Of a DNA stretch of 64,000 nt, positions 9,693 through 63,260 are shown one piece after another (the stretch's first letter is position 1; each line of letters begins with the position of its first letter). The stretch comes from Pseudohongiella spirulinae. Its GTDB lineage: Bacteria > Pseudomonadota > Gammaproteobacteria > Pseudomonadales > Pseudohongiellaceae. Location of the stretch: assembly GCF_001444425.1 (NCBI RefSeq), contig NZ_CP013189.1, positions 1,798,001 through 1,862,000 of the forward strand, given 5' to 3'. Below the pieces are notes generated by a model. The model had not been told where the DNA came from. It did no database searches and saw nothing but the letters and a program-made list of their open reading frames with translations. The translations under genes were made by a program, and so were the position numbers.

Positions 9693-10499
9693 CTAACGAC
9701 GCCGTTTCTGCGGCCGGGCCGGACGACGGGTGCTGCCGGAGGGTGGCGTCAGTCCGGCCAATTCATAAAGGCCGACCACTTCAGCCGTCTTCATTTCGTA
9801 AAACTGACCTTTTTTGACCCGACTGGGTATAAATACAGGCCCGTAACGGACCCGTTTCAGGCGGCTGACACGCACGCCCTGCGATTCCCACAGCTTGCGC
9901 ACCTCCCGGTTTCTGCCTTCCATGATCACCACGTGATACCAGCGGTTGCGTCCTTCACCGGCAAAGTATTGAACATCTGTGAATCGGCAAAGATGCTCTT
10001 CAATCATGACGCCCTTTAAAAGCGTCTTTATCATCTCATCGGTCACATCGCCGTTTATTCGCACGGCGTATTCACGATCAATATTGCTGGATGGGTGCAT
10101 CAGTCGGTTGGCCAGTTCACCGTCTGTGGTGAACAGCAGCAGACCGCTGGTGTTGAAATCCAGGCGCCCTACAGCTACCCAGCGCCCATGTTTGATTGGC
10201 GGCAGATGATCATACACGGACGGACGACCCTCGGGATCGCGCATGGAGCAGATTTCATTCTCGGGCTTGTTATATAGCAAAACCCGCGGCATGGCCGCAT
10301 CGTCACCCATATTGGCAACTTTTTTTCCATCCACGTGAATGGTGTCTTCCGGCGTCACACGATCCCCGATCGAGGCCACTTTCCCGTTAACACGCACCCG
10401 CCCCTCATCAATCCATGATTCCATGGTGCGTCGCGAACCAAAGCCCGCCCTGGCCAGCACTTTTTGCAATTTTTCGTCCTGTTGGACTTCTTCACTCAT
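9693..10499 (-). CDS. rluB: 23S rRNA pseudouridine(2605) synthase
   Basis: Isomerises U2605 of 23S rRNA. The 268 residues contain an S4 RNA-binding domain (about 10-60, LQKVLARAGFGSRR) and an RsuA/RluB catalytic domain with the nucleophile Asp114 in GRLDFNTSGLLLF. A basic Arg/Pro tail is common in RluB. The ATG at 10499 lies 8 nt inside the end of scpB, and the longer open frame upstream is scpB sequence. Last gene of the trpS-scpA-scpB-rluB group. Confidence 0.95.
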   Translation of the reverse strand: MSEEVQQDEKLQKVLARAGFGSRRTMESWIDEGRVRVNGKVASIGDRVTPEDTIHVDGKKVANMGDDAAMPRVLLYNKPENEICSMRDPEGRPSVYDHLPPIKHGRWVAVGRLDFNTSGLLLFTTDGELANRLMHPSSNIDREYAVRINGDVTDEMIKTLLKGVMIEEHLCRFTDVQYFAGEGRNRWYHVVIMEGRNREVRKLWESQGVRVSRLKRVRYGPVFIPSRVKKGQFYEMKTAEVVGLYELAGLTPPSGSTRRPARPQKRRR

Positions 10500-11319
10500 C
10501 CGTTTGATCCTGCTTATCCCGACCGTAGCCGAGAATGTCGTCAAGAGGTCGTTTGGCCAACGCCATCGCCTCATCCTCATCAATTAATTTGTCCGGGTCG
10601 ATCGCTTCATCATCGGTATCCGGCCCGGCGTCCTGTTCATCCGGCAGGGTCAGCACCCGTCCTTCCGACCCGTCACCCAGATCCAGCTCGGGATTGAGCT
10701 GATCCAGATCGCGGATTTCGGACAGCGGCGGCAACTCCTGCAGACTTTTCAGATTAAAATAATCCAGAAAGTGACGTGTCGTGGCAAACATGGCTGGTCT
10801 GCCCGGCACATCGCGATGGCCAACCACCCGTATCCACTCGCGGTCCAGCAGCGTGCGGATTATTGTGGAACTGACCGCCACACCCCGTATTTCCTCTATG
10901 TCACCGCGAGTAATCGGCTGACGATAGGCAATAAGACCCAGCGTCTCCAGCAAGGCCCGGGTATAGCGCTGCGGTTTTTCTTCTGACAGCCGCGCAATCC
11001 AGGGGCTCAAATGCTGCCTGACCTGAAAGCGAAAGCCCGAAGCGACCTCTTTCAACTCAAATCCCCGTTCTTCGCAGCCTTCAGCAATCCTGGCCAATGC
11101 GGCACGGATCTGATCATTTGTCGGACGCTCTGCCTCCACAAAGAGTTCGGCCAGTGCCGCCACCGACAGGGGTTTACCCGAAGCCATCAGCAATCCCTCG
11201 ATGATCTGCTGCAGCAGTTTTTCATCGATGTCGCGGGCGGCTTCTTCTACCGTCTCGACAGCCGCCTCATCAATAGGAGTGCCGTCTTCGGGCTCAATAG
11301 GAGTTGAGTTTTCAGTCAT
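10492..11319 (-). CDS. scpB: Segregation and condensation protein B
   Basis: Winged-helix kleisin-interacting subunit that works with ScpA and an SMC protein in chromosome compaction. The core (about 30-190) has the ScpB signature stretches GLLMASGKPLS and YRQPITRGDIEEIRG. A long acidic C-terminal tail (about 195-275, rich in Asp/Glu) follows the core. The gene starts 43 nt after scpA and overlaps rluB by 8 nt. Confidence 0.93.
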   Translation of the reverse strand: MTENSTPIEPEDGTPIDEAAVETVEEAARDIDEKLLQQIIEGLLMASGKPLSVAALAELFVEAERPTNDQIRAALARIAEGCEERGFELKEVASGFRFQVRQHLSPWIARLSEEKPQRYTRALLETLGLIAYRQPITRGDIEEIRGVAVSSTIIRTLLDREWIRVVGHRDVPGRPAMFATTRHFLDYFNLKSLQELPPLSEIRDLDQLNPELDLGDGSEGRVLTLPDEQDAGPDTDDEAIDPDKLIDEDEAMALAKRPLDDILGYGRDKQDQTDE

Positions 11320-11362
11320 TGCATACCTGCATCAGTTTCTTATCCGCCAACTGCCCCACTGC

Positions 11363-12184
11363 TCAGCTGCGCGCCTTGATGTGAATCGGCGCAAATGGTT
11401 CATTTTGTACAATATCAACCAATGAGTCTTTGACCAGCTCCATAACAGCCAAAAAGGTCACGACCACCCCAAGCCGGCCCTCTTCACGCATCAGCAAGGA
11501 GACCAGCGGCACAAAACGCTCACTGGACAGACGCACCAGAATTTCGGCCATTTTCTCACGGGTCGACAGGGTTTCGCGCTGCACCTGATGGTGCTCAAAC
11601 ATGTCCGCCCGTCGGAGTGCACCGGCCAGCGCCGCCAGAATTTCATGTAACTCAACAACCGGATCAGGCGCCGTGCGCTCAAGCTGAGGCCCGGTGGCTC
11701 CGGCTACAAAGATATCACGCTCAATGCGGGGCAGTTCGTCAAGATCTTCAGCCGCTTTTTTGTATCGCTCGTATTCCTGCAGACGTCTTATCAGTCGCGC
11801 GCGCGGATCTTCTTCGTCTTCCTCTTCATCCTTGCTGCGCGGCAGTAGCATGCGCGATTTGATCTCGGCCAGCATGGCGGCCATCACCAGATATTCGGCC
11901 GCCAGCTCAAACTGATGGGACTCCATCAGCTCGACATAAGCCATGTACTGCTCAGTGATCAGCGACACATCAATATCCAGAATATCGATATTTTGACGTT
12001 TGATCAGATACAGCAGCAAATCCAGCGGGCCTTCAAATGCCTCCAGAAAAACCTCCAGAGCATCCGGCGGAATATACAGATCCTGAGGCAGCTCGGTAAT
12101 CGCCTTACCCGCTATATACGCAAAGGGCATCTCATGCTGCGGAGGCTCCTGAGGTGAAATCTGTGTGATCGACGGATCGCTCAT
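11363..12184 (-). CDS. scpA: Segregation and condensation protein A (kleisin)
   Basis: Kleisin subunit bridging SMC heads. The 273 residues carry the family hallmark FEGPLDLLLYLIKRQNIDI near residues 50-68 and the middle block MAAMLAEIKSRMLLP, with an acidic run EEDEEDP after it. The start codon overlaps the trpS stop by ATGA. Encodes the partner of the following scpB. Confidence 0.94.
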   Translation of the reverse strand: MSDPSITQISPQEPPQHEMPFAYIAGKAITELPQDLYIPPDALEVFLEAFEGPLDLLLYLIKRQNIDILDIDVSLITEQYMAYVELMESHQFELAAEYLVMAAMLAEIKSRMLLPRSKDEEEDEEDPRARLIRRLQEYERYKKAAEDLDELPRIERDIFVAGATGPQLERTAPDPVVELHEILAALAGALRRADMFEHHQVQRETLSTREKMAEILVRLSSERFVPLVSLLMREEGRLGVVVTFLAVMELVKDSLVDIVQNEPFAPIHIKARS

Positions 12185-13407
12185 CAGCGGTAGGCCAGCC
12201 CCATTGCTTCGCGCACATCGCGCAATGTTTCGCGGGCTGACTCTCGAGCCTGTTCGCCGCCATCTGCCAGGATTGAACGCACCACATCGGGATCTTTCTC
12301 ATACTGCCGGGCTCGCTCCTGAATCGGCTCCAGCTCGGCAATGACCGCGTCAATCACTGGCTTTTTGCAGGCCAGACAGCCGATGCCCGCATTTCGGCAG
12401 CCATCCTGCACCCAGGCACGTGTACTGTCATCAGAATACACTTCATGCAACTGCCAGACCGGACACTTATCCGGATCACCCGGATCGGTCAGCCTTACTC
12501 GGGCTGGATCGGTTGGCATGGTGTTAATCTTTTTGGCAACCGTATCCAGATCCTCGCGCAGCGCAATGGTGTTGCCATAGGACTTGGACATCTTCTGTCC
12601 GTCCAGTCCCGGCATCTTGGCCGCCGGTGTCAGCAAGGCCTGCGGTTCGGCCAGAATCATTTTACCGCTGCCTTCCAGATATCCGTACAAACGCTCACGA
12701 TCACCCAGGGAAATATTCTGCTGCTCGCGAATCAAGGCCTGCGCCCGCTCCAGCGCCTCATGGTCACCCTTTTCCTGGTAGGCCGTGCGTAGTGTCTGGT
12801 AAAGACGCGCGGCTTTTTTGCCCATTTTTTTAACGGCGGCTTGGGCATTATCCTCAAAACCTGGCTCTCGCCCGTACAGATGATTGAATCGTCTGGCAAC
12901 TTCGCGGGTCAGTTCAACATGCGCCACCTGATCAGCACCGACCGGGACATTTCCGGCACGATAAATCAGAATGTCAGCGCTCTGCAGCAAGGGGTAACCA
13001 AGAAAACCGTAGGTTTCCAGATCGAGATCACGCAACTTTTCCTGCTGATCCTTGTAGCTGGGTACCCGCTCCAGCCAGCCCAACGGAGTCATCATCGACA
13101 GCAGCAGATGCAATTCCGCATGTTCGGGCACACGCGACTGAATAAACAGGGCCGCCGAGCCGGGGTTGACGCCTGCCGCCAACCAGTCAATCACCATGTT
13201 CAGCACATGCTCTTCCAACATTTGCGGCGAGGCATAATGTGTGGTCAGAGCGTGCCAGTCGGCAACAAAAAAGAAGCACTCATACTCGTGCTGTAATTTG
13301 ATCCAGTTCTTCAGAACCCCGTGATAGTGCCCCAAATGCAATTGACCGGTAGGACGCATTCCGGACAGAACACGTTTTTGCGACTCCACTGTAGACAAAC
13401 GACCCAC
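12184..13407 (-). CDS. trpS: Tryptophanyl-tRNA synthetase with a predicted iron-sulfur cysteine motif
   Basis: Class I aminoacyl-tRNA synthetase charging tRNA-Trp. In 407 residues the HIGH-type motif is LHLGHYHG (23-30) and the KMSKS loop is QKMSKSYGNT (271-280). About 75 extra residues between them are an insertion seen in the longer TrpRS type. Cys315, Cys337, Cys344 and Cys347 give C-x21-C-x6-C-x2-C near the anticodon-binding region. This closely matches the C-x22-C-x6-C-x2-C that holds a [4Fe-4S] cluster in Thermotoga maritima TrpRS. The reading starts at GTG 13407 next to GAGGGA; a second GTG 18 nt further in is possible. Confidence 0.95.
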   Translation of the reverse strand: MGRLSTVESQKRVLSGMRPTGQLHLGHYHGVLKNWIKLQHEYECFFFVADWHALTTHYASPQMLEEHVLNMVIDWLAAGVNPGSAALFIQSRVPEHAELHLLLSMMTPLGWLERVPSYKDQQEKLRDLDLETYGFLGYPLLQSADILIYRAGNVPVGADQVAHVELTREVARRFNHLYGREPGFEDNAQAAVKKMGKKAARLYQTLRTAYQEKGDHEALERAQALIREQQNISLGDRERLYGYLEGSGKMILAEPQALLTPAAKMPGLDGQKMSKSYGNTIALREDLDTVAKKINTMPTDPARVRLTDPGDPDKCPVWQLHEVYSDDSTRAWVQDGCRNAGIGCLACKKPVIDAVIAELEPIQERARQYEKDPDVVRSILADGGEQARESARETLRDVREAMGLAYR

Positions 13408-13458
13408 TCCCTCTTGAAAAAATCGGCGCTATTATCGCACGAATTAACAAAGACCATG

Positions 13459-14079
13459 TTACATAAACGGCGCGGGATCACCCTTGCCCGCACGCAGCAG
13501 CTGCGGCGCACCCTCAACCAGATCGACAACCGTGGTCGGCTCCAGTCCGCAGGCCCCGCTCTCAACAATCAGATCCACCAGTTTTCCGACCTGATCTTCG
13601 ATATCGTAGATCTCTGACAGCGGGTGTTCATCATCAGGCAGGATCAGACTGGTGCTCATCACCGGCTCACCTACTGCCTCCAGCAGAGCCAGAGTCACCG
13701 GATGATCCGGAATGCGCAGACCGATGGTTTTTCGCTTGGGGTGCATCAGGCGCCGGGGCACTTCAGCGGTGGCCGGCAGAATAAACGTATAGGCACCCGG
13801 CGTATAGGCCTTGAGCAGACGGTAGGCGCTGTTGCTGACTTTGGCATAGGTGGAGATTTCTGAAAGATCGCGACACATGAGCGTCAGATTATGTTTGTCA
13901 GACAACTGACGAATGCGCCGGATGCGCTCCAGAGCATTTTTATCGCCTATGTGACAGGCCAGCGCATAGGTTGAATCGGTGGGATACACCACGACACCAC
14001 CGCCTATCAGCACCTCGGCGGCACGCTGTATCAGTCGGGGCTCGGGATTTTCGGGATGTATTTGTAAAGTCTGAGTCAT
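13459..14079 (-). CDS. yciO: YciO family protein (YrdC/Sua5 fold)
   Basis: Relative of the threonylcarbamoyl-adenylate synthase TsaC. The 206 residues are the E. coli YciO length. GGVVVYPTDSTYALAC near the N-terminus is the YrdC nucleotide motif, with the KHNLTLMCRDL and KRKTIGLRIPDHP blocks further on. E. coli YciO is thought to have weak or distinct activity compared with TsaC, so its role is uncertain. The ATG at 14079 is preferred over an upstream in-frame extension with no family similarity. Confidence 0.9.
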   Translation of the reverse strand: MTQTLQIHPENPEPRLIQRAAEVLIGGGVVVYPTDSTYALACHIGDKNALERIRRIRQLSDKHNLTLMCRDLSEISTYAKVSNSAYRLLKAYTPGAYTFILPATAEVPRRLMHPKRKTIGLRIPDHPVTLALLEAVGEPVMSTSLILPDDEHPLSEIYDIEDQVGKLVDLIVESGACGLEPTTVVDLVEGAPQLLRAGKGDPAPFM

Positions 14080-14205
14080 GCGCGGCGTTGCGTTCCTGTC
14101 TGTGGTTCTTTTATGATCCCTGTGCCGGGAAAGCGCCAACAATAGCAGGCTGCCCCGGCAAAGTCGACATTCACTCAAGCACCGCAGAAACCTGCCAGGA
14201 GCCCC

Positions 14206-14505
14206 ATGTTATACGCCATTATCAGTGAAGATGTACCCAATAGCCTGCCCATCCGCATGCCGGTTCGTCCCGCACACCTGGAACGGGTAGAGGCACTGCG
14301 CGCCGAAGGCCGACTGATTATTGCCGGGCCACATCCGGCCATCGACAGCGAAGATCCGGGCGAGGCTGGCTTCACTGGCAGCCTGATCATCGCTCGCTTC
14401 GACTCTCTTGAGGATGCTCAAGGCTGGGCTGATGAAGACCCTTATCAAAAGGCCGGTGTCTACCAGCGCGTCACAGTCAAACCTTTCAAGCAGGTGCTGC
14501 CCTGA
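14206..14505 (+). CDS. YciI family protein
   Basis: Small cytosolic alpha/beta-barrel ferredoxin-like protein of 99 residues. Family features are the conserved His of VRPAHLERV near residue 23, [19 protein letters not shown], and DPYQKAGVY at the end. YciI proteins have a proposed hydrolase or lyase active site built on His-Asp, but no settled physiological function. CAGGAG sits 5 nt before the ATG. Divergent from yciO; convergent with the cyclophilin gene 24 nt away. Confidence 0.88.
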
Positions 14506-14529
14506 ACAACCGGATCATTCTCTGGAAAA

Positions 14530-15123
14530 TCAGGGCGCAGGCGCGGGCTTCAGTCCATCGAAATTGCGGTTGAGTATGGTATTCCAGACCAGCAGGTCGG
14601 TAGATTTCCGTTCCCATAACGCCGAGATATCGCCATTGATGGTGACGCTGATCATTGTGTCACCCCGGCGGATTGCGTTCACAACATCCATGCCGCTGGT
14701 CACGTAACCAAACACCGAGTGATTGCCATCCAGATGCGGCGTCGGCAAGTGAGTGATAAAAAACTGGCTGCCATCGGTACCGGGTCCGGCATTGGCAGTT
14801 GAAATTACACCCGGACGATTATGTTTCAGGTTCGTCTCACCGCGAAAGGTATAACCCGGGCCACCACGCCCGGTGCCTTCCGGGTCACCAGTCTGAATCA
14901 TGAAACGTGGCTCAACCCGATGAAAAACCAGTCCATCGTAATAGCCTCGCAGCGCCAGGTTGATGAAATTGGCTGCCGACGTGGGCGCCGCGCCCTCCCG
15001 CAGACTCAGTTCAATCGTTCCCTTGCTGGTTTCAATGGTCGCCGTAATATTCTGAGCCTGCAGGCCCGTGGAACACAACAAGCCCACCAGCAATAAACCC
15101 AGCATCTGCCGCATTTTGATCAT
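14530..15123 (-). CDS. Periplasmic cyclophilin-type peptidyl-prolyl isomerase
   Basis: Cis-trans proline isomerase. The 197 residues begin with a signal peptide (LGLLLVGLLCSTGLQAQ, cleavage probably after residue 22-24). Cyclophilin motifs follow: LVFHRVEPRFMIQTGD, GSQFFIT and LDGNHSVFG. The usual tryptophan of the cyclosporin site is replaced by His, which is common in bacterial forms. The ATG at 15123 follows AGGGG and lies 20 nt after the xthA stop; the upstream in-frame extension falls in xthA. Confidence 0.92.
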   Translation of the reverse strand: MIKMRQMLGLLLVGLLCSTGLQAQNITATIETSKGTIELSLREGAAPTSAANFINLALRGYYDGLVFHRVEPRFMIQTGDPEGTGRGGPGYTFRGETNLKHNRPGVISTANAGPGTDGSQFFITHLPTPHLDGNHSVFGYVTSGMDVVNAIRRGDTMISVTINGDISALWERKSTDLLVWNTILNRNFDGLKPAPAP

Positions 15124-15143
15124 GCAAAAACCCCTGCTCGCTA

Positions 15144-15932
15144 TCATGACTGACTGGTTTGCCAATCCCACTCCAGATCAAGTGTCACCGGGGCGTGATC
15201 GGAAAAATTCTCATCAGTGTAAATTGTAGCATTCTCTACCCGTGAGGCCAGCGCCGGAGTGACTATGTGATAGTCCAGACGCCAGCCAACGTTTTTGGCT
15301 CTGGCCTGGCCCCTGTTTGACCACCAGCTGTACTGATCGGGCTGCTGATTCACCAGCCGGAAAGAGTCCACGTAACCCAGCTCATCGTAAAGTTGATCCA
15401 GCCAGGCCCTCTCCTCGGGCAGAAAACCTGAATTCTTGCGGTTGGCCCGCCAGTTTTTCAGGTCAATTTCCTTATGACAGATATTCCAGTCAGCGCACAG
15501 CACATATTCACGGCCCGACCCGCGAAACTGCTTTAACAAAGGCAGAAAACGATCCAGAAACTCAAATTTGATGGCCTGCCGGGCATCACCGCTGGATCCT
15601 GATGGCATATAAAGAGAAACAATGCTCAGATTACCAAAATCAGCCTGTATGTAGCGCCCTTCCTGGTCAGCCACCGACCAGCCAATGCCACGGCTGATCT
15701 TGTCCGGAGTAACACGGCAATAGATGGCCGTACCGGCATAACCTTTTTTTTCCGCATCGCAGAAAAACCGCTCATAGCCAGCAGGCCTGAACACCTCATC
15801 GTCGAGCTGATGAACCTGCGCTTTGGTTTCCTGCAGACACAGCACGTCAATCTGCTGACGGGAGAACCAATCAAAAAAGCCCTTGCGCGCGGCCGAACGA
15901 ATACCATTGCAGTTAAAGGTGGTGATGCGCAT
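15144..15932 (-). CDS. xthA: Exodeoxyribonuclease III
   Basis: AP endonuclease and 3' repair exonuclease. In 262 residues the EEP-fold motifs are FNCNGIR (Asn7 region), LCLQETKA (Glu35), LYMPSG, CADWNICH and the C-terminal SDHAPVTLDLE. The ATG at 15932 matches the family N-terminus (MRITTFNCNGIR); an upstream in-frame extension to 16016 does not. Confidence 0.96.
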   Translation of the reverse strand: MRITTFNCNGIRSAARKGFFDWFSRQQIDVLCLQETKAQVHQLDDEVFRPAGYERFFCDAEKKGYAGTAIYCRVTPDKISRGIGWSVADQEGRYIQADFGNLSIVSLYMPSGSSGDARQAIKFEFLDRFLPLLKQFRGSGREYVLCADWNICHKEIDLKNWRANRKNSGFLPEERAWLDQLYDELGYVDSFRLVNQQPDQYSWWSNRGQARAKNVGWRLDYHIVTPALASRVENATIYTDENFSDHAPVTLDLEWDWQTSQS

Positions 15933-16030
15933 CTGTACCCCACGTGTAAAAGCGCCCAAGTGTAACCAGAGCGTTCCGGGCTGGCAATCCGACCGATCAG
16001 CGCAGTTTTCAGTCAACTCACCGACATAAG

Positions 16031-16176
16031 GTTACATTTCATCGTGAAAATAAAAATATTTACCTAAAAGTGTTACTTTATTGCGCAACTGTGTTACTAT
16101 ACGCACCGTTACCGAGGCACAAAACGCCAACCGTAACAAACAAAGGTAACAAACCCTGTTTTTAAGATTGAGTAAC
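16031..16176. promoter_or_regulatory. Cluster of seven GTTAC/GTAAC pentamers
   Basis: GTTAC occurs at 16031, 16072, 16093 and 16108. Its complement GTAAC occurs at 16133, 16146 and 16172. All lie in the 264-nt divergent region between xthA and a small hydrophobic ORF. Two copies are preceded by TG (TGTTAC at 16071 and 16092) and lie 21 nt apart, two helical turns. Four forward copies followed by three reverse copies looks like a regulator-binding array. I cannot name the regulator. Confidence 0.5.
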
Positions 16177-16196
16177 CTCAAAAGGAGATGACTTAA

Positions 16197-16298
16197 ATGA
16201 GTGAACTGATCATTAGCGCACGAGCCGCACTGATCACCGCAGCCGTTGTAACAGCCTCAGTTGCTGTTCCTGTGCTGACCATTCTGGCTAACGTGTAA
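16197..16298 (+). CDS. Small hydrophobic peptide, 33 residues
   Basis: Short ORF beginning MSELIISARAALITAAVV and ending LTILANV. AAAAGGAGATGACTTAA directly before the ATG gives a strong ribosome site (GGAG at 9 nt). After a polar N-terminus, residues about 10-31 form one continuous hydrophobic helix rich in Ala, Val and Thr, the right length for a single membrane span. It is framed by the GTTAC cluster upstream and an intrinsic terminator about 90 nt downstream, so it looks like an independent monocistronic gene. I know no homologue and assign no function. Confidence 0.6.
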   Translation: MSELIISARAALITAAVVTASVAVPVLTILANV

Positions 16299-16389
16299 CA
16301 GACTTAACACCGAATTTTTGATGCGTGACTAAACTGGCTGACAGGAAGACGCGCATCTGTAAATGCAAGACCCGCGTGGACGGTTTTTT

Positions 16390-16424
16390 ACGCCGGCTCT
16401 GACCTTCAGAGCCGGCGTTTTTAT
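16390..16424 (+). terminator. Intrinsic terminator of the 33-residue peptide gene
   Basis: A perfect 13-bp GC-rich stem (ACGCCGGCTCTGA, loop CCT, then its complement) is followed by TTTTATT on the plus strand. It lies 11 nt before the convergent moaB stop. The minus strand lacks a U-tract after the stem, so the terminator serves the plus-strand transcript. Confidence 0.85.
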
Positions 16425-16435
16425 TGGCGGGACGA

Positions 16436-16951
16436 TTACACAGACTTAAGTTTGTCGACAAAATGGCAGGGCTTATGACGGCTATCGAGCTGCTGGGCAA
16501 TAATGCCCTGCCAGGCTGTGCGGCAGGCACCGGTAGACCCGGGCATGCAGAATACGATTGTGCCATTGCTCATGCCGGCAAAGGCGCGCGACTGGATAGT
16601 CGAGCTGCCGATCTCGGCGTGAGACAGGTAGCGGAAAATCTCCCCGAAACCATCAATGTGCATATCAAGCAAGGGGGTGACAGCCCGCACTGTATTATCA
16701 CGATGCGTAAAACCGGTGCCGCCGGTCAGTAACACCGCCTGCACCTGATCATCGGCAATCAGCGTGGCTACCAGAGCCCTTAACTTGTACGTATCATCTT
16801 TGACAATATGCCGGGCCAGGACAGTGTGACCCGCCTGCTGCAGGCTGTCGGCCAGATATTTTCCTGAGGTATCGGTCTGCTCGGTGCGAGTATCAGAAAC
16901 CGTCACCACCACCGCATTAACGGGTAAAAAACCAGTACTTTCTTTTGCCAT
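16436..16951 (-). CDS. moaB: Molybdopterin adenylyltransferase MoaB
   Basis: MogA/MoaB-fold protein of molybdenum cofactor synthesis. The 171 residues align end to end with E. coli MoaB: MAKESTGFLP against its N-terminus, then LTGGTGFTHRD, GFGEIFRYLS, GSSTIQSRA and MPGSTGACRTAW. The ATG at 16951 fits the family start. A GTG at 16960 that overlaps the moaA stop is closer to GGAGG but adds three foreign residues. Co-transcribed with moaA. Confidence 0.94.
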   Translation of the reverse strand: MAKESTGFLPVNAVVVTVSDTRTEQTDTSGKYLADSLQQAGHTVLARHIVKDDTYKLRALVATLIADDQVQAVLLTGGTGFTHRDNTVRAVTPLLDMHIDGFGEIFRYLSHAEIGSSTIQSRAFAGMSNGTIVFCMPGSTGACRTAWQGIIAQQLDSRHKPCHFVDKLKSV

Positions 16952-16959
16952 GTTTGGCA

Positions 16960-18039
16960 CTAACCTCCAGTCATGTTCATCAGCCGGACCGGCTGAGCGT
17001 AATCGGCCTCATAAAAATGATGACGCTCCGGCTTCAGATCCATGGCCGCGATGATGGCCTGCTTCAGCGACTCGCTGACCGGCTCTCTTTCCAGGTCTGC
17101 AAGATCGCCCAGTGGTGCCGGCCCCTGCTCTGCTAGCCCGCGCCGCAGTACGCTTCGTAAATCAGATGAATGTTCATTGCCCAGACACAGCAACAGGCGT
17201 CCTTCAACAGTTACCCGGACCCGGTTGCAGTCCGCACAAAAATTATGTGACATAGGTGAGATGAAACCGATGCGACTATCATAACCGGGAACACGGTAGT
17301 ATTTAGATGGCCCGGCGGTTCGCGCATCGCTGGCCTGGAGTGAATAGTGTGCCGAAATCTGTTCTCTGACCCAATCGTTGGTGCAGACAGTGTCTTCACG
17401 CTTGTGGTCAGACGCCTCTCCAAGAGGCATTTCCTCGATGAAGGCGATATCCAGACCCTGGTCAAGCGCGTAGTCGGTCAGTGCCATGACTTCGTCATCG
17501 TTGTACCCTTTCATGATGACGGCATTCAGACGGATACGCTCAAAATCCTCTTGCTGCGCTGCGGCAATTCCGGCCAGCACCCGATCAAGATCGCCAACCC
17601 GCGTGATACGACGAAAACGCTCCGGCTGCAGGCTGTCAATGCTGATATTGATACGAGTAACCCCTGCCCTGCGCAGCGGCGCCGCGAGTTTCTGCAATTG
17701 TGCGCCATTGGTCGTCAACAATAGCTCATTCAGGCCGGGCAATCGCCCCAACGCCTCAATCAGGCTCATAACGTTACTTCGCACCAGCGGTTCGCCGCCT
17801 GTCAATCGCAATCGCTTTACGCCAAGCTCAGTAAAAGCCTTGCCGATTGCATAGATTTCTTCCAGGCTCAGTACCTGTCGGCGTGGCAGAAAAGTCATCT
17901 GTTCGGTCATGCAGTACACACACCGGAAATCACATCGGTCTGTGACTGACAAACGCACATAGTCCACCCGTCGACCAAAACGATCGATCAATGCGGGCGT
18001 TTCACTACCTGCGGACATGGACTTTGCAGCTTCTGTCAT
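16960..18039 (-). CDS. moaA: GTP 3',8-cyclase (radical SAM)
   Basis: First step of molybdopterin synthesis, GTP to 3',8-cyclo-GTP. From the ATG at 18039 the protein has 359 residues. The radical-SAM cysteines are Cys36, Cys40 and Cys43 (CDFRCVYC). The C-terminal second cluster is FCADCNRVR with a further Cys in LLLCLG, and the chain ends in the required Gly-Gly. The start is uncertain: ATG 18039 and ATG 18018 both lack a clear ribosome site, and a GTG at 18069 overlaps ccmI. Last-but-one gene of the ccm operon, overlapping moaB's region by one base. Confidence 0.94.
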
Positions 18040-18052
18040 ATAAACACTATAG

Positions 18053-19324
18053 TCAGGGAACGGGTTCACTGATCATTATCTGAATCCTGGCCGGATTTTC
18101 CGGTTCGGCATCGTGGTCCAGCATAACAGGTGCGGAACGTGCCTGAAAATCGCCGCTCTGAACATCGGCTGTGCCACTCAGGGACACCGTAGCAACCACC
18201 ACGACCTCAGAAGCTGAAGAAAGATTAAAAGGACCCACTGCATCGGCGTCACTCAGGTCGACCACCAGCGGCAAATCGGCCACCGTGAGCAGTCTGGCCG
18301 CAAGAGGCGGACCGGGTCTTGCACTGTCCTGGGCTGACACAAATACCCGGGTATCATCCGGCACATCGAGTTCGGGCGACAGAGACAAACTGACCTGAAT
18401 CTGGGGCGCAGAAGCCATCGGATCGGCGTCAGCAGCCGACTGCTGCGTCATCTGAGCCTGAGCATCGGCGATCATCATACGCAGGAACTCACCATCTTCG
18501 CTGCCGGCCGGGGTCATATTCAGCAATCGTTGCCAATAAGTCAAAGCACTCTGAAAGTCGCGATTGACATAGGCATCGGCACCCAGCAGTTGCAGCACCG
18601 CCGGTTCAGATGGGTTCAGTCGCTGCGCGCTATCAATGATCTGCATGACCTCAGCCGTCATTTGCTGACCGTCAGCAATATACTGAGCCTGGGCATACTG
18701 GCCCAGGACCACCGCGCGATCCTGAGGATGCTCAATGTTTTCAGACGCACGCTCAAAGGCCACTGCCGCCTGCTCAAACTGACCGAGCGATACCAGATTG
18801 CGGGCCAGAAAGTACCAGGCCCAGCCATTTTCACGGTCCCGCTCAATTACCTCGCCGAGTTCAAAAATGATATCCCGGATCTGCTCAGGATCATTCTGCG
18901 CAGCACGGCTGCGATCAAAAATCTGTGCGACCTGCAAATCATTGCTGAAGCCCCACAAGCCGTATAGCCAGATACTCAAAGGCAACACTGCAACAGCCAT
19001 CAACAGGGGAATCAGGCGTAGCGGACTGAACCAGCTGGCTTTAGCCTGTTCCGCAGCAGACTGATCGGTCGCGTCGTCCGAGCCATCTACATCGCTCAGC
19101 AACGTGCGTGACAGTTCTGCCTCCAGCGCATCAAACTCTGTCTGATCAATATGCCCCTCGGACAGTTCAGCCCGAATCTCGCCCAATCGTTCTTTATAAA
19201 TGCTCAGGTTCGCGGCATTACGCTCTTTGAGACCTGCCACCGCCTTGTTGCTGTGCCTGATGACAGGCAGCAGCACAAAAAGCAGGGCCAGTACAAATAA
19301 CAGGGTACTGATTATCCAGAACAA
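18053..19324 (-). CDS. ccmI: Cytochrome c maturation protein CcmI (CycH)
   Basis: Membrane-anchored apocytochrome c chaperone of the CcmFHI ligation complex. The 423 residues begin with a transmembrane helix (2-22), then a cytoplasmic coiled region, a second helix (about 96-117) and a periplasmic TPR domain (about 140-300). A C-terminal beta-rich domain follows. The start is a TTG: it is preceded by GAGG at 7 nt, and the first helix begins immediately after it, so no later ATG would preserve the anchor. Confidence 0.9.
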
Positions 19325-25384: not shown

Positions 25385-25666
25385 CGGAGACGGCGTCAGG
25401 CTCTGAGTGCTTTGCGGCCGAAGTCGGCACAAGGGCTGTGGGTTGACCTGCACGGTCGTGACCATTCAGGCCATGTTTTCTTCTTTCCCCACACACCCGA
25501 AAAGCGGGCGGGACTGTCCGAGTCCCGAGCGGCAAAGCCGCGAGGTCGAGTTCCCCCCCGCCGGGGGTGTGGGGAAAGAAGATGGCCGGTCACGACCGTG
25601 CAGGTCAACCCCCAGCCCGCTCCCCAACAGAACCTCTGCAAAGCACTCAGAGCCTGACGCCGTCTC
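25385..25666 (-). repeat. Long hairpin element, copy A, with a perfect 30-bp terminal inverted repeat
   Basis: Nested inverted repeats occupy the whole ccmA-DUF2802 gap. The outermost arms, 25385-25414 and 25637-25666, are perfectly complementary over 30 nt. A second pair, 25439-25462 and 25587-25610, is perfect over 24 nt. A third pairs CTTCTTTCCCCACAC with GTGTGGGGAAAGAAG. The centre (about 25499-25561) contains the family core, read on the minus strand with ACTCGAC...GGGACTCGGACAG. The conserved one-sided motif AAACATGGCCTGAATGG is at 25461-25477 (minus). The right outer arm includes the last codons and stop of the DUF2802 gene, so its inverted copy stands upstream of ccmA. Confidence 0.85.
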
Positions 25667-26045
25667 CTACGCCGCGCGCGGCCATCAGGGAGACAAGTTT
25701 GGCTTCGGCTTCTGAGAGGCCGCAGGATTTGACCAGTTCGGCGGGGTCGGCGCCCATCTGCACAAGCTTGCTGGCCTGGGCATAGGTCAGGCTGCCGCTG
25801 TCCTTGTTTTCAAGGTCCTGCTGGCGTCTCTGGGTCTGAGTGACGCGCTGGTCCAGGGTAATCAAGGATTGTCCAAGCTGACCGACGGCCTGGCCGGTTT
25901 TACGCAACAGAGATTCGTGACGTGAACTGGCGGCGGCAAGGGAGGCCTGCAATTCACGCAACCGACGCATCTGCACAAACTGCATCACGATGAGCACGCA
26001 GCACAGCGTCGCCAGAATTCCTGCAATAATCATTGTTGCCATCAT
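25647..26045 (-). CDS. DUF2802 protein downstream of cheW
   Basis: Uncharacterised membrane-anchored protein of 132 residues often found after cheW in Pseudomonas-type chemotaxis loci. One N-terminal membrane helix (about 4-25) leads to a coiled coil (about 28-80). A C-terminal DUF2802 helix-turn-helix-like segment follows (SLTYAQASKLVQMGADPAELVKSCGLSEAEAKL, seen in two parts). The ATG at 26045 follows GGAG at 7 nt. The last codons (GDGVRL and stop) lie in the terminal inverted repeat of element A, so the C-terminus may have been shaped by that element. Confidence 0.82.
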   Translation of the reverse strand: MMATMIIAGILATLCCVLIVMQFVQMRRLRELQASLAAASSRHESLLRKTGQAVGQLGQSLITLDQRVTQTQRRQQDLENKDSGSLTYAQASKLVQMGADPAELVKSCGLSEAEAKLVSLMAARGVGDGVRL

Positions 26046-28129: not shown

Positions 28130-29218
28130 TCAGCTAAACTCCTCACACAAACGCGGCGCCACTTTTTCCAGGCTGAGCACTTCATCAACCAGACCGGCTT
28201 TGGCCACCGCCATCGGCATGCCATAGATGACCGAACTGGCCTCATCCTGAGCCCAGATACTGGCACCCTGTGCTTTTAACAAGCGGGCACCATCGCGGCC
28301 ATCGGACCCCATGCCGGTCAGCACCACGCCCAGCACCTTGCCGCCCAGATCCCGCGATGCCGAACCAAAGGTTACATCCAGCGACGGTTTATAATTGAGC
28401 CGTTCATCTCCATCAACCACCCGCACCCGCATGACGGGCCTGCCCTCCAGCAGCATCTGCTTACCACCCGGTGCCAGATAGGCATGTCCGGGCTTTAACA
28501 CATCGCCATCGACTGCTTCTGCGATGCCAATCTGACAAATGCGATTCAGACGTTCAGCAAAGGCTTTGGTAAAGGTGCCGGGCATATGCTGAACCAACAC
28601 AATCGGCAGTGGAAAATTCGCCGGCAAGGCGGTCAGGACCTGTTGCAAGGCCATTGGTCCGCCTGTCGAAGCGCCAATAATCACTAATTGAACGCCCCGT
28701 GGGGAACTGCGACGCGCCGCAGCCGCCGTGTTTGACGCCGACACAGGCGCAGGGGTCGCAGCCGCTCTCTCGTCGGGCGTGACCACCGAGCCTGACACTG
28801 GCACCGGGCGCCGCCGGGGTCCGCTGCGCGACACCACCACGATGCGCTCACACAAAATCTTTTGCAACTCCTCAGCGTGCCGTGAGATATCTTCGAAATT
28901 CTTTGGCAGATAATCCACCGCGCCGGCTTCCAGTGCATCCAGCGTAACCCGCGCGCCTTCGTAAGTCAGCGAGGAAAACATCAGCACCGGTGTTGGCCGG
29001 ATCTGCTGAATCTGTCGCACAGCCGTGATGCCATCCATTACCGGCATCTCATAATCCATGGTAATCACATCGGGTTTAAGTGCACGAACCTGATCTATAG
29101 CCTCCTGTCCGTTGCTGGCGGTTCCCACCACCTCGAGACGGCTGTCGCCATTGATCAATTCCGTTAATCGCCGACGGAAAAATCCCGAATCATCAACCAC
29201 CAACACCCGAATACGCAT
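28130..29218 (-). CDS. cheB: Chemotaxis response regulator protein-glutamate methylesterase
   Basis: Demethylates and deamidates chemoreceptors when phosphorylated by CheA. The 362 residues contain a receiver domain with Asp55 in VITMDYEMP, a Pro/Ala-rich linker (about 125-172), and a methylesterase domain. Its triad is Ser184 (GASTGGP), His211 (VQHMPG) and Asp306 (GMGSDG). It follows cheA after 14 nt. Confidence 0.96.
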   Translation of the reverse strand: MRIRVLVVDDSGFFRRRLTELINGDSRLEVVGTASNGQEAIDQVRALKPDVITMDYEMPVMDGITAVRQIQQIRPTPVLMFSSLTYEGARVTLDALEAGAVDYLPKNFEDISRHAEELQKILCERIVVVSRSGPRRRPVPVSGSVVTPDERAAATPAPVSASNTAAAARRSSPRGVQLVIIGASTGGPMALQQVLTALPANFPLPIVLVQHMPGTFTKAFAERLNRICQIGIAEAVDGDVLKPGHAYLAPGGKQMLLEGRPVMRVRVVDGDERLNYKPSLDVTFGSASRDLGGKVLGVVLTGMGSDGRDGARLLKAQGASIWAQDEASSVIYGMPMAVAKAGLVDEVLSLEKVAPRLCEEFS

Positions 29219-53598: not shown

Positions 53599-53815
53599 GT
53601 TTAACGAGTATGCTGACCGCGCGGTGCGGCTGGGCAGGGACTCTGCCGGCCACATCCCTGACGGGAAATTCCGGCGCTGCAGAACTCGACTTCGACGCTG
53701 CGCGTCTCAGGACTCAGACAGGCTTCGCGCTTTTTCGGAATTTCCCGTCAGGGATAAACGTGGCCTGAATGGCAGTGTCCCTGCCCACCCGCACCGCGCT
53801 CACTTCGTAGTTGCC
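53599..53815 (+). repeat. Long hairpin element, copy B
   Basis: Fills most of the 519-nt gap upstream of fleS. Outer arms GCGCGGTGCGG...GGGCAGGGAC (from 53619) pair with GTCCCTGCCC...CACCGCGC (to 53799). Inner arms are 53654-53672 and 53737-53755 (ATCCCTGACGGGAAATTCC and its exact complement). The core at 53673-53736 includes GAACTCGAC, GGACTCAGACAGG and CGCGCTTTTTCGG. AAACGTGGCCTGAATGG at 53756-53772 gives the bulges AAAC and TGAAT around GTGGCC, which pairs with GGCCAC. The right flank CTCACTTCGTAGT is shared with copy D. The rest of 53438-53956 holds the fleS promoter and a short GC hairpin near 53863. Confidence 0.85.
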
Positions 53816-53956
53816 AAGCGTCAGAGCTCCGATCGTAAGGCGGGGCCCAAATAAAACCCGGCAGCGCCGGTTATTTTGTTCTATAAAACATATGCGCCCA
53901 ATCATTTTTATTGGTCGGAGGATAGAAACTCAATTTCTCAGGATGAGGAGGTCAGT

Positions 53957-54049
53957 ATGATTCAGGCTTTAGAGCCCAGACATTATAACCCGCAGGCATG
54001 GTGGGGAGAACTGTCATGTTTGCTGCGGGAGCCACAGGCATGGCAATGA
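53957..54049 (+). CDS. Possible 30-residue peptide
   Basis: Begins MIQALEPRHYNPQAWWG and ends REPQAWQ, with PQAW twice. It has an excellent ribosome site, AGGAGG at 5 nt. No homologue is known to me and no promoter is clear. Base composition does not tell coding from non-coding at this length, so the case rests on the ribosome site alone. Confidence 0.35.
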   Translation: MIQALEPRHYNPQAWWGELSCLLREPQAWQ

Positions 54050-54072
54050 CAATGACCCAACAAGGTTCTTAA
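54016..54072 (+). CDS. Possible 18-residue peptide overlapping the preceding one
   Basis: MFAAGATGMAMTMTQQGS in a different frame from the 30-residue ORF, with GGGGAG 7 nt before its ATG. Two overlapping short ORFs, both with good ribosome sites, might be a translationally coupled leader or chance. No function is assigned. Confidence 0.25.
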   Translation: MFAAGATGMAMTMTQQGS

Positions 54073-54083
54073 AAGCAAATGAT

Positions 54084-54105
54084 GGGACGGAGGAAACTCC
54101 GTCCC
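54084..54105. repeat. GGGACGGAG hairpin with GAAA loop
   Basis: Perfect nine-base arms GGGACGGAG / CTCCGTCCC closed by a GAAA tetraloop, the shortest member of the repeat family. It sits between the small ORFs and the 121-residue membrane protein gene. Confidence 0.75.
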
Positions 54106-54140
54106 GGATTCAGAATTTACTGTTACTCCGCTGAGGTTGC

Positions 54141-54506
54141 ATGATCAAAATTGAACGGCCGCTTTTGTTGATCGGTAAGAATCGCCCCTCTTTCTTGTTT
54201 GAGTCACAGTTGTTGCTGTTCAGGCAATTAGCAGCCAGCTGCTTTGTCTTTCTTGGGTTTGCTGCCGTAATTCTTCTGTCGGCGGGGATATCATCTGTGG
54301 CAAGGAGTGCAGTTCTGATAGCGATGCTTTTTGCGACTTCCCTACCGGGCATTGTGCTTGAGTATTTTCTGGAGAGAAACGTCAAAGCCGGGCGCAAGGG
54401 CCCTTGCGCATATCAAACATGCAAACTCTACAGTACAGAAATATTGCAGTTTGGATTTGTCGCAATACTGGCTGCTTTTGTAATCGGGATTGCTGTGGGT
54501 TTTTAG
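54141..54506 (+). CDS. Hypothetical small membrane protein
   Basis: A 121-residue protein with three predicted membrane helices (about 27-47, 54-73 and 100-120) and a basic connecting loop with a Cys pair (GPCAYQTC). TGAGG lies 5 nt before the ATG. I do not recognise the family. It is in an accessory pocket between repeats and mazEF and may be recently acquired. Confidence 0.6.
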   Translation: MIKIERPLLLIGKNRPSFLFESQLLLFRQLAASCFVFLGFAAVILLSAGISSVARSAVLIAMLFATSLPGIVLEYFLERNVKAGRKGPCAYQTCKLYSTEILQFGFVAILAAFVIGIAVGF

Positions 54507-54542
54507 GACCGCCCTTTGACAAGCGGCAACTTTGTTTAAACA

Positions 54543-54574
54543 TTGTATAACTCAATGCAGATGATAATATACAA
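54543..54574. promoter_or_regulatory. Probable mazEF operator dyad
   Basis: TTGTATA (54543-54549) and TATACAA (54568-54574) are exact inverted seven-base arms with 18 nt between, ending 14 nt before the mazE start in an AT-rich promoter region. MazE-type antitoxins with AbrB folds commonly repress their own operon through such dyads. Confidence 0.55.
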
Positions 54575-54588
54575 GGGGTATAAACTGG

Positions 54589-54858
54589 ATGCTGGCAACT
54601 GACATGCAAACAAATATTCGCAAATGGGGCAACTCAGCGGGGACCATCATACCTGCACCGGTGCTGGCAGAGGCTGGACTGCGTGTGGGTGATGCAATAC
54701 AAATCGAAGTCGTGGATGGAACGATTGTGATCCGGCAGGCTGCTCCTGTTTACCGACTGGAGGACCTTCTGGAAGCGACCCCGTCAGACAAGTTGGCACT
54801 CGACGACGAGGATAAGCAGTGGCTTCATGATGCTCCTGTGGGCAGGGAGTCCGATTAA
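54589..54858 (+). CDS. mazE: MazE-type antitoxin (AbrB fold)
   Basis: Antitoxin and autorepressor of the toxin encoded next. From 54589 it has 89 residues; a second ATG at 54604 is possible. The swapped-hairpin DNA-binding domain shows IRKWGNSAGTIIPAPVL and GDAIQIEVVDGTIVI, and an acidic C-terminal tail (LALDDEDKQWLHD) would wrap the toxin. The stop TAA abuts the mazF ATG. Confidence 0.9.
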   Translation: MLATDMQTNIRKWGNSAGTIIPAPVLAEAGLRVGDAIQIEVVDGTIVIRQAAPVYRLEDLLEATPSDKLALDDEDKQWLHDAPVGRESD

Positions 54859-55188
54859 ATGGCTTATATCCCTGCGCGTGGCGACATTATATGGACAGAC
54901 TTCGACCCGTCCGCCGGGCACGAGCAGGCACGACGGCGTCCTGCGATTGTGCTCTCTCCCGAGGTCTTCAACTGGCAGATCAAACTGGCACTGGTCGCCC
55001 CCATAACCAGTCGGATACGCGGACACGGTTTTGAGGTCCACCTGCAGGGAACCACGACGCAGGGTGCTGTGCTATGTCAGCAGGTCAAAACCATCGACTA
55101 CGACTATCGCGGCGTTAAATTCATTGAGGCCGCTCCCACCGGCGTGTTAAACGAGGTGCTCGCCAAGGTACGCACCCTTGTAACATAG
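54859..55188 (+). CDS. mazF: MazF-type endoribonuclease toxin
   Basis: PemK/MazF-fold mRNA interferase, 109 residues. Family motifs are PARGDIIWTDFDPSAGHEQ (near 4), RRPAIVLSP, APITSRIRG and QVKTIDYDYRG. It pairs with mazE with no gap. Cleavage specificity cannot be read from sequence. Confidence 0.92.
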   Translation: MAYIPARGDIIWTDFDPSAGHEQARRRPAIVLSPEVFNWQIKLALVAPITSRIRGHGFEVHLQGTTTQGAVLCQQVKTIDYDYRGVKFIEAAPTGVLNEVLAKVRTLVT

Positions 55189-55209
55189 GGCTGGCAGGCA
55201 AAAGAGTCT

Positions 55210-55926
55210 TCAGATCAAGCGTCCAACTGCATCCTGAGCAATCAGAAAGCCGGCAATACCCAGTGTCCAGCCCAGAGCCGATTCGGCATTGCGGCAGATC
55301 CAGTCGTCAACCCCGACCAGAATGGGTTGAATGCGCTCGTGCATGATGCGGCGCATAACCAGCAGACACAAAGCCGGCATGATCATCACGAAACAATAGG
55401 ACGCCATGACAATGAACATGGTCAACGCAGACATGTCGGCGGCCGTAATCATTGCAATAGCGCCCAGATACGGCAACATGGTCGCCAGCTCGGCGATACC
55501 TGCGAACAAAGCCAGTCCCATCAACACCCGCGGTGAAGTTGTCGCCTCATGCGCCCTGTCCTTCCAACGTTTTACGCGCTCTGCCGCCCCCGGCTTGCTA
55601 CTGTCAAAGCGCCAGCTGATCGCAAACAGCCAGATGCCCACCAGCAACTGAGCCACGGTCAACGCCATTGCAAACACGCCTGGGGTTGCCTCGGTGTCGG
55701 CGGGCACATCCTCAGCCATGCTGCCCATCACCGCATCAGCCCCAAGTGCCAACACCAGCCCCACTACCAGGTAAAACCCGGCAATGGTGCCCAAATAAAG
55801 CAACATACGCGACAACCGAATCCGCCGATGGTCCAGCAGCAACCAGACCGGAATCAGCAAAGTCCCGATGCTGGTACTGTCAATCAGCGCCAGCCCCACC
55901 AGCGCCAGAATCAAAGCGATGCTCAT
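55210..55926 (-). CDS. GAP-family (Sap, sulfolipid-1-addressing type) membrane protein
   Basis: Six-helix integral membrane protein, 238 residues, related to the LysE-like GAP family first named in mycobacteria, where members help export lipids. The function here is unknown. ATG 55926 (MSIALILALVGLALIDSTS) follows GTGAG; an in-frame start at 55941 would lie in the inverted repeat. Confidence 0.72.
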   Translation of the reverse strand: MSIALILALVGLALIDSTSIGTLLIPVWLLLDHRRIRLSRMLLYLGTIAGFYLVVGLVLALGADAVMGSMAEDVPADTEATPGVFAMALTVAQLLVGIWLFAISWRFDSSKPGAAERVKRWKDRAHEATTSPRVLMGLALFAGIAELATMLPYLGAIAMITAADMSALTMFIVMASYCFVMIMPALCLLVMRRIMHERIQPILVGVDDWICRNAESALGWTLGIAGFLIAQDAVGRLI

Positions 55927-55940
55927 AATCTCACCCTGCA

Positions 55941-56240
55941 CCCGAGCCTGACACGGGGGACGGAGGCGGTCTACGTCCCCAGGGCAATGTCAGTGATTAA
56001 GCGTCTTGGTGGTGAACGCGATTACGGTCAATCAGGCCACGTTTATCCCTTGCGGGAAATTCCGATAAAGCGCGAAGCCTGTCTGAGTCCGGAGCGGCGC
56101 AGCTGCGACGTCGAGTTCTGCAGCGCCGGAATTTCCCGTAAGGGATGTAGCCGACCGTAATCGCGTTCACCACCAAGACGCGCTAACCAATCAATTAAGT
56201 GGGGACGTAGACCGCCTCCGTCCCCCGTGTCAGGCTCGGG
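55941..56240. repeat. Composite inverted repeat: split GGGGAC pair with 40-bp arms around hairpin element C
   Basis: The arms 55941-55980 and 56201-56240 are perfectly complementary over 40 nt. Each contains one half of a GGGGACGGAG pair (55956-55980 and 56201-56225). The right arm also contains the last ten bases of dcd and its stop, so an inverted copy of the dcd end stands just upstream of the GAP-family gene. Between the arms lies element C (56001-56181). Confidence 0.88.
56001..56181 (-). repeat. Long hairpin element, copy C
   Basis: Perfect 29-nt arms at 56001-56029 and 56153-56181. Inner arms at 56045-56063 and 56128-56146 have one mispair, which is G-U in RNA. The core at 56064-56127, read on the minus strand, matches copy B over almost its whole length (GAACTCGAC, CGGACTCAGACAGG, CGCGCTTTATCGG). 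AAACGTGGCCTGATTG at 56029-56044 (minus) provides the bulges. Orientation is opposite to copies B and D. Confidence 0.87.
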
Positions 56241-63043: not shown

Positions 63044-63260
63044 GCGTTTAACGTGTGCGGGGGCCGCGCGGTGATGGTGGTCGGGGGCACGTCCGACCGC
63101 AGCTCCGCCACGGCTTTCCGGCGCTGCGGAACTCGACCTCGCAGCAAGCTGCTCGGGACTCAGACAGGCCTCGCGCTTTTTCGGAAAGCCGTGGCTGCGC
63201 TAAACGCGGTCTGAATGGACGTGCCCCCGACCACCATCACCGCGCTCACTTCGTAGTAAG
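63044..63260 (+). repeat. Long hairpin element, copy D
   Basis: In the 324-nt gap between the convergent glycosyltransferase and argG genes. Outer arms at 63066-63094 and 63217-63245 are perfect over 29 nt. Inner arms are CCACGGCTTTCCG (63108-63120) and its complement (63182-63194). The core at 63121-63181 includes GAACTCGAC, GGGACTCAGACAGG and CGCGCTTTTT. AAACGCGGTCTGAATGG at 63202-63218 gives the bulges AAAC and TGAAT around GCGGTC, which pairs with GACCGC. The right flank CTCACTTCGTAGT equals copy B, and an inverted near-copy of it (CTACGGAGTGAGCGCG) follows at 63301-63316. Confidence 0.87.

Follow-up and report, generated by a model that had tools for sequence, protein, structure and literature searches.

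A dispersed family of hairpins with a conserved internal loop and covarying stems in Pseudohongiella and unrelated bacteria

Four hairpins in a 64-kb window of the Pseudohongiella spirulinae chromosome

The window, by which we mean the whole stretch of 64,000 nucleotides analysed here (contig NZ_CP013189.1 of P. spirulinae, positions 1,798,001 to 1,862,000), carries four long hairpins, referred to as copies A to D. Copy A lies inside a run of CheW, DUF2802, ABC-transporter and CcmB genes, and copy D sits between a glycosyltransferase gene and an argininosuccinate synthase gene. Copies B and C enclose a PemK-like gene and an SfLAP gene. They face each other (53815-55955) across these two genes, the former of which (54859-55188) encodes a PemK/MazF-like toxin; upstream of it lies an open reading frame of 121 aa (54141-54506) without a Pfam match. 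The interval from B to C is possibly one acquired block. The hairpins and their parts are located as follows, in window coordinates:

53599..53815, plus strand: copy B, the type copy, entire hairpin with flanks
53682..53690, plus strand: first core strand of copy B, GAACTCGAC
53710..53721, plus strand: second core strand of copy B, GGACTCAGACAG
53648..53653, plus strand: left arm GGCCAC of copy B, the partner of the hexamer
53756..53770, plus strand: one-sided block AAAC-GTGGCC-TGAAT of copy B
about 25386..25667, minus strand: copy A, extent of the inverted repeat, with the core at 25514-25553
about 55941..56240, minus strand: copy C, including the flanking REPs and the inverted end of the dcd gene, with the core at 56079-56118
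56201..56226, minus strand: REP repeat at one end of copy C, belonging to a separate repeat family
55955..55980, minus strand: inverted REP at the opposite end of copy C
55941..55951, minus strand: TCAGGCTCGGG, an inverted copy of the final 11 bases of dcd (56230-56240)
about 63044..63260, plus strand: copy D, with core strands at 63129-63137 and 63156-63167
63201-63216, plus strand: bulge block TAAAC-GCGGTC-TGAAT of copy D

An earlier note on this DNA had described four loci with a common core of about 64 nt and, on one side only, a block in which AAAC and TGAAT or TGATT enclose a hexamer that changes together with the opposite arm. All four loci were recovered at E 3.5e-15 or better by a covariance model (R1) that was built from 25 seed sequences, these four copies among them. 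The common core holds in full for copies B, C and D, in which it reads GAACTCGAC-stem-GGACTCAGACAG, but only in part for copy A, which carries GGACTCGGACAG instead of GGACTCAGACAGG and in which CCCGCTTTT replaces CGCGCTTTT. In the window, GGACTCAGACAGG occurs exactly three times, compared to 0.05 occurrences expected with one mismatch allowed. The one-sided block is as described in all four copies: each hexamer is flanked by AAAC and TGAAT or TGATT, and hexamer and partner are GTGGCC/GGCCAC in B, GTGGCC/GGCTAC with one wobble in C, GCGGTC/GACCGC in D and ATGGCC/GGCCAT in A. The bulge motif alone is not specific, as a scan of the window also found AAAC-N6-TGAWT at 29063-29077 on the minus strand, where the hairpin core is lacking. 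Copy B folds with -131.1 kcal/mol, compared to -78.95 ± 4.61 kcal/mol in 200 shuffles (z -11.3).

Spread of the family and its constant core

The earlier note had proposed a genome-wide covariance search, and further copies do exist: on the host chromosome R1 found 31 copies, the four in the window and 27 more. An exact core search of the chromosome returned ten 13-mers, nine of them inside hairpins and one (L005) without the other core strand. About half of the host copies (16/31) fall within 270 kb (1823497-2093735), which is 8% of the chromosome (p 3e-10, an optimistic value because the interval was chosen after being seen). Many REPs, too, fall within this interval. Three convergent pairs of copies lie less than 400 bp apart. 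With the origin assumed at coordinate 1, no replication-strand bias was seen in the host, where 6/11 and 10/20 copies per half are on the plus strand.

Beyond the host, R1 matched in 15 of 15 genomes of the same genus and in 4 of 41 other relatives. A pattern scan over 84,980 species genomes yielded 58 stretches. Apart from a Streptomyces stretch (L041), which looks like a chance match inside a gene, they come from Pseudohongiella, UBA2675, SAT189 and further gammaproteobacterial records, from Exilibacterium and Halieaceae, from Pusillimonas caeni (Betaproteobacteria), from deltaproteobacterial and Desulfobacteraceae MAGs and from one Patescibacteria MAG. In eleven genomes taken from the pattern hits, one of which apparently is already counted among the 15 same-genus and 41 other relatives, R1 found 67, 12, 1, 8, 4, 2, 1, 4, 1, 1 and 6 matches; a deltaproteobacterial MAG (G056, hereafter the MAG) has 67 copies, Pusillimonas 12 and the Patescibacteria MAG 1. 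The distribution of the family across bacteria is sporadic. Among 398 genomes sampled evenly across the phylum, the host alone scored (1/398), at a reduced sensitivity of 12 scored candidates per genome, at which the host itself yielded 12 copies and not 31. Viral contigs gave 0 matches by exact pattern, and plasmids and phages gave none with copy B as the only query.

To describe the family, we used 159 distinct copies, obtained from 312 candidates by filtering and de-duplication, a few of which could be spurious or lie nested in others. AACTC forms the first core strand in 144 of the copies, and the second fits TCRRACAG in 140 (TCAGACAG 63, TCAAACAG 30, TCGAACAG 29, TCGGACAG 18); as the filter permitted one change in the first and two in the second strand, these counts arise partly by construction. 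The closing pair of the stem between the two strands (stem 2) is GC in 88 of 112 distinct cores, AT in 21, and CG, GT and AC in one each. The constant part of the family is an asymmetric internal loop, AACTC-stem-TCRRACAG, accompanied in 103 of the 159 copies by the one-sided bulges around a six-base stem. Across these copies, the bulge block has 19 distinct hexamers. The hexamer is perfectly complementary to its site on the other arm in 63 of the 103 copies and matches in 5/6 bases in 31 more, whereas 200 draws with arms taken from other copies gave 18.6 perfect partners on average and 29 at most. The minimal core also occurs in MAG hairpins with different surroundings (L191, L194, L157). The MAG further harbours a second family of long palindromes (L189-L192, L196), which has the ends GGGCTGTTGCCCAAA...TTTGGGCAACAGCCC and an identical minimal core.

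Covariation was assessed on 25 diverse copies, in which 82.8% of the cells pair, compared to 62.1% in shuffles, and 78 cells carry double changes, compared to 25.6. The test favours the structure, as the latter was drawn from the same 25 sequences. Sliding the partners by one column left 41.1% or 65.3% of the cells paired and 35 or 38 cells changed on both sides. Individual loci display the same behaviour. Three genomes (G002, G005 and G006) share one copy with flanks that are 92-97% alike; where two of them have a C-G pair, the third has T-A. In four genomes the core lies 80-87 bp from the stop codon of a gene that we take, from its protein sequence, to be fba; the arms look unrelated between these genomes and are complementary within each. 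The core with its covarying stems is found in unrelated taxa. The covariation that the earlier note anticipated is therefore present in excess of shuffles, and its picture of a conserved unpaired core, one-sided bulges and co-varying stems is supported by the 25-copy covariation and the 159-copy hexamer count. The note had also taken conserved bases with compensatory stems as the signature of folded RNA or single-stranded DNA. This pattern is real, but in a long palindrome covariation is no proof of such a function, since template switching during replication also makes paired changes.

Turnover, position behind genes and folding strand

In a comparison with 14 relatives, copy A was absent in 12 (10 by alignment of both flanks and 2 by match spacing, with 2 relatives not judged), and copy C was absent within 130 bases behind dcd in all 14. 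Both window sites compared therefore show presence or absence at the same site in relatives, as is the case for bacterial MITEs. The MAG hairpin is bordered on both sides by terminal inverted repeats, and the core was present in 23 of the 30 terminal-repeat loci fetched. Terminal inverted repeats of the MITE type (15-30 bp, no coding capacity) were found in the MAG, and the ends in the host differ between subfamilies. No common ends were found across the host copies, no target duplication could be defined and no fresh insertion was caught. The earlier note had proposed looking for a linked recombinase, reverse transcriptase or RAYT gene. None was seen, either by Pfam among 18 proteins beside the window copies or by eye at the ORF starts in six other loci, and inspection by eye of four of the seven MAG repeat loci without the core revealed no mobility gene. 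From the dispersal of the copies and their presence or absence at given sites we infer that the hairpins are mobile. Beside MAG copy L029, a gene end is present as a large inverted duplication, which we disregarded, as a run of 100 N within it suggests an assembly artefact, probably caused by the palindrome. A further MAG repeat with the ends GGTTTCAAAACC...GGTTTTGAAACCAGTTCTAG (L131, L157) adjoins the terminal repeats of hairpin elements.

Within the genus, the hairpins are mostly placed behind genes. Based on gene calls that are simple open-reading-frame picks, hairpin and upstream gene are co-oriented in 52 of 61 copies (23 of 29 in the host, 29 of 32 in genus relatives), and the distance from the gene's stop codon to the base of the hairpin is usually some tens of bases. 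Such a bias is not seen in the MAG (13:13), and the remaining taxa score 9/13. Some copies hold the same place, behind the same genes, in several species. We also considered that the arms might generally derive from the target. Of the 73 copies that have an upstream gene on the same strand, only 10 showed an inverted repeat reaching at least 6 bases into this gene, several of these ten being due to chance, REPs or artefact, and the rule was rejected.

Mismatches in the arms bear on which strand folds. A G.T mismatch on one strand of a palindrome is an A.C mismatch on the other, and in the absence of selection or strand bias the two should be equally frequent. We counted isolated mismatches with at least 3 pairs on each side, once per sequence context, on the strand read in the earlier note (the reader's strand). 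The 159 copies contain 81 A.C, 30 G.T and 81 other mismatches (p 1.4e-6), spread along the arms. By group, A.C:G.T is 45:16 in genus relatives, 15:4 in the host, 8:0 in the MAG, 3:1 in G066, 1:1 in Exilibacterium, 4:6 in Pusillimonas and 5:2 in others. Merging similar events changed the ratio to 74:29, 65:28, 44:26 (p 0.04) and 25:16 (p 0.21), the last two under the harshest mergings, so that significance is lost at the very harshest. Within stem 2 it is 3:3, and a stricter core finder that required pairing next to the core retained 51 copies with 22 A.C and 6 G.T. The complement also folds better in 120 of the 159 copies, which is partly the same fact as the mismatch asymmetry. The A/G alternation in the core opposite C would become G.U/G-C on the complement; some core-adjacent positions are conserved as G.T on the reader's strand, which counts against the complement. 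The excess of A.C over G.T suggests that the complementary strand folds, and we consider this the probable arrangement. The hairpin described in the earlier note thus stands, but the strand on which it was read is likely not the folded one. In 62 copies, the 75 bases next to one end of the hairpin contained no conserved promoter-like stretch, and transcription of the complement is accordingly hypothetical.

These data also bear on the explanation that the hairpin is a functional RNA element in 3' UTRs or between convergent genes, which would block, end or stabilise transcripts via a bound protein or RNase and be kept because it is useful. The fixed orientation just behind stop codons in the genus and the strong folds, as in copy B, would agree with this, and so would the copies kept at the same place across species, which also fit a useful fixed function. 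The orientation bias is, however, missing in the MAG, and copies A and C are missing behind the same genes in relatives. Furthermore, the sense RNA would correspond to the reader's strand, yet the mismatches favour its complement. Finally, two relatives have a separate T-run terminator, recognised by eye, between the hairpin and a candidate acnB, a name presumed from the protein sequence. Taken together, we regard an RNA element at gene ends as unlikely.

Comparison with known elements and a proposed reading

The family matches no RNA family in Rfam 15, which gave 0 matches in the window at gathering thresholds, and at E up to 1 nothing overlapped the hairpins in 15 other loci, where a tRNA in L167 and weak hits elsewhere in L082 and L161 were the matches. 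In the literature searched we found no description of such an element; judged by titles and the beginnings of abstracts, the letter string of the core returned only off-topic papers, among them one on E. coli small RNAs. The closest likeness is to the palindromic MITE-like repeats ERIC, YPAL, NEMIS and RUP, which PMC3733652 describes as short, non-coding, intergenic, multi-copy, hairpin-forming and often located beside coding sequences, traits that the hairpin family shares. Compared with these repeats by description, the hairpins differ in being united by the loop and bulges rather than by arm sequence, in having the same core across several classes and phyla, and in having common terminal repeats in the MAG only. 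The hairpins are a real family without a description in the Rfam release and literature searched, and are best filed beside the palindromic MITE-like repeats.

Our favoured reading, which we put forward tentatively, is that these are non-autonomous, MITE-like dispersed elements that are recognised by their shape and work as a folded single strand. The element would be roughly 200-300 bp long and its working form a folded single strand, RNA or DNA, more likely the complement of the reader's strand. On this strand the core would read 5'-CUGUYYGA-stem 2-GAGUU-3', where the GA on both sides of stem 2 could form tandem sheared G.A pairs, leaving the 5' side three bases longer; the remaining conserved bulges would be on the same (5') arm. 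A putative trans-acting factor would read this shape and mobilise or copy the element, in the genus mostly to places just behind stop codons. As the arms need only pair, their sequence would drift, and their complementarity would be kept by selection on the fold, aided by template switching and by exchange of arm modules between copies. In a kink-turn, a three-base bulge with tandem G.A would be enclosed by two paired helices; by sequence reading, the complement has GA on both strands beside stem 2 and three extra bases, and CUG against GUU forms no outer-helix pairs.

A possible, though doubtful, extension is that the hairpins form a new class of structure-recognised element, in which the internal loop 5'-CUGUYYGA / GAGUU-3' of the folded bottom strand is the main recognised feature and an attC-like logic is served by another enzyme. 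If so, one kind of trans-acting machine would work on sequence-unrelated hairpins in Gammaproteobacteria, Betaproteobacteria, deltaproteobacteria and Patescibacteria. Free arms combined with a fixed internal loop and bulges would imply a factor that reads shape. It is normally by their sequence that dispersed repeats in bacteria are defined, and a family defined by loop and bulges is easily missed by sequence-based repeat finders. Sets of orthologous hairpins would, in addition, allow compensation driven by selection to be told from template switching, for example via the strand asymmetry of wobble pairs.

The pairing of the arms might alternatively be passive, the hairpin being an old, functionless inverted repeat that stays paired only through template switching in replication. 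According to PMC8794818, template switching creates, repairs and maintains perfect stems and makes paired changes in one step, which the hairpins have in common with the RNA stems treated there. Copy C offers an example in its flank TCAGGCTCGGG, the inverted end of dcd, a coding sequence conserved in relatives, which is likely a trace of template switching. Unlike such stems, the hairpin family keeps a conserved open core and bulges beside freely changing arms; template switching would also pair up the core loop and bulges, yet both remain open in unrelated taxa, and a passive palindrome predicts neither the A.C/G.T asymmetry nor the dispersal. Some of the arm covariation may be due to template switching, but the conserved core is not explained by it, and as a full account we hold a passive palindrome to be improbable.

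We judge it similarly improbable that the hairpins are REP/BIME-type repeats moved by a RAYT (Y1) transposase. Both are intergenic palindromes. One of the host's two Y1 genes (a RAYT-like gene at 1940276, within host positions 1939664-1941736) is flanked on either side by REPs of the GGGGACGGAGGCGGTCTACGTCCCC kind, several host hairpins lie between such inverted REPs, and Y1 genes are present in 18 of 19 hairpin-positive compared to 27 of 37 negative relatives (p 0.08). However, many hairpins are not flanked by REPs, and many REPs occur without a hairpin. Negative relatives frequently have Y1 genes and one positive relative lacks them, and neither Y1 gene of the host adjoins a hairpin copy. 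The core is a different one, and the inverted repeats of roughly 200-300 bp far exceed REPs, which PMC3733652 gives as palindromes of 20-40 bp. The earlier note's statement that the layout is not that of a REP hence holds insofar as REPs are a separate family of different size, with the qualification that some copies are flanked by them. Many genomes of the genus and of the family carry a Y1-domain gene (open frame roughly 325-345 aa long), which possibly encodes a domesticated Y1 protein. The note had likewise set the hairpins apart from IS200/IS605 ends and retrons, and no linked transposase or reverse transcriptase was seen beside the window copies (Pfam) or in six loci (by eye).

It is very improbable that the hairpins are attC-type sites, which an integron integrase would recombine in the form of a folded bottom strand. 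Variable complementary arms, one-sided unpaired bases, a fixed orientation behind a stop codon and a favoured bottom strand are shared, and an integron integrase is encoded by the host (390 bits, cut-off 265). However, the hairpins lack the AAC/GTT end boxes and are dispersed rather than arrayed, and the integrase showed no clear association with them (10/19 positive and 16/37 negative relatives, p 0.58). Loose boxes (TAACA/GCGTTA) were found at the ends of 0 of 159 hairpins and at nine sites in the host's own integron; strict boxes (RYYYAAC/GTTRRRY) occurred together in 0 of 159, and the loose scan is the better test, as the attC sites of the host itself escaped a strict scan with arm pairing. 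Membership, considered seriously in view of the strand result, was rejected on these grounds, in agreement with the earlier note. The host integron itself lies within host positions 183000-202000 (locus L317), at about 9800-18800 of that locus, and consists of the integrase gene followed by small same-strand ORFs with the nine attC-like sites.
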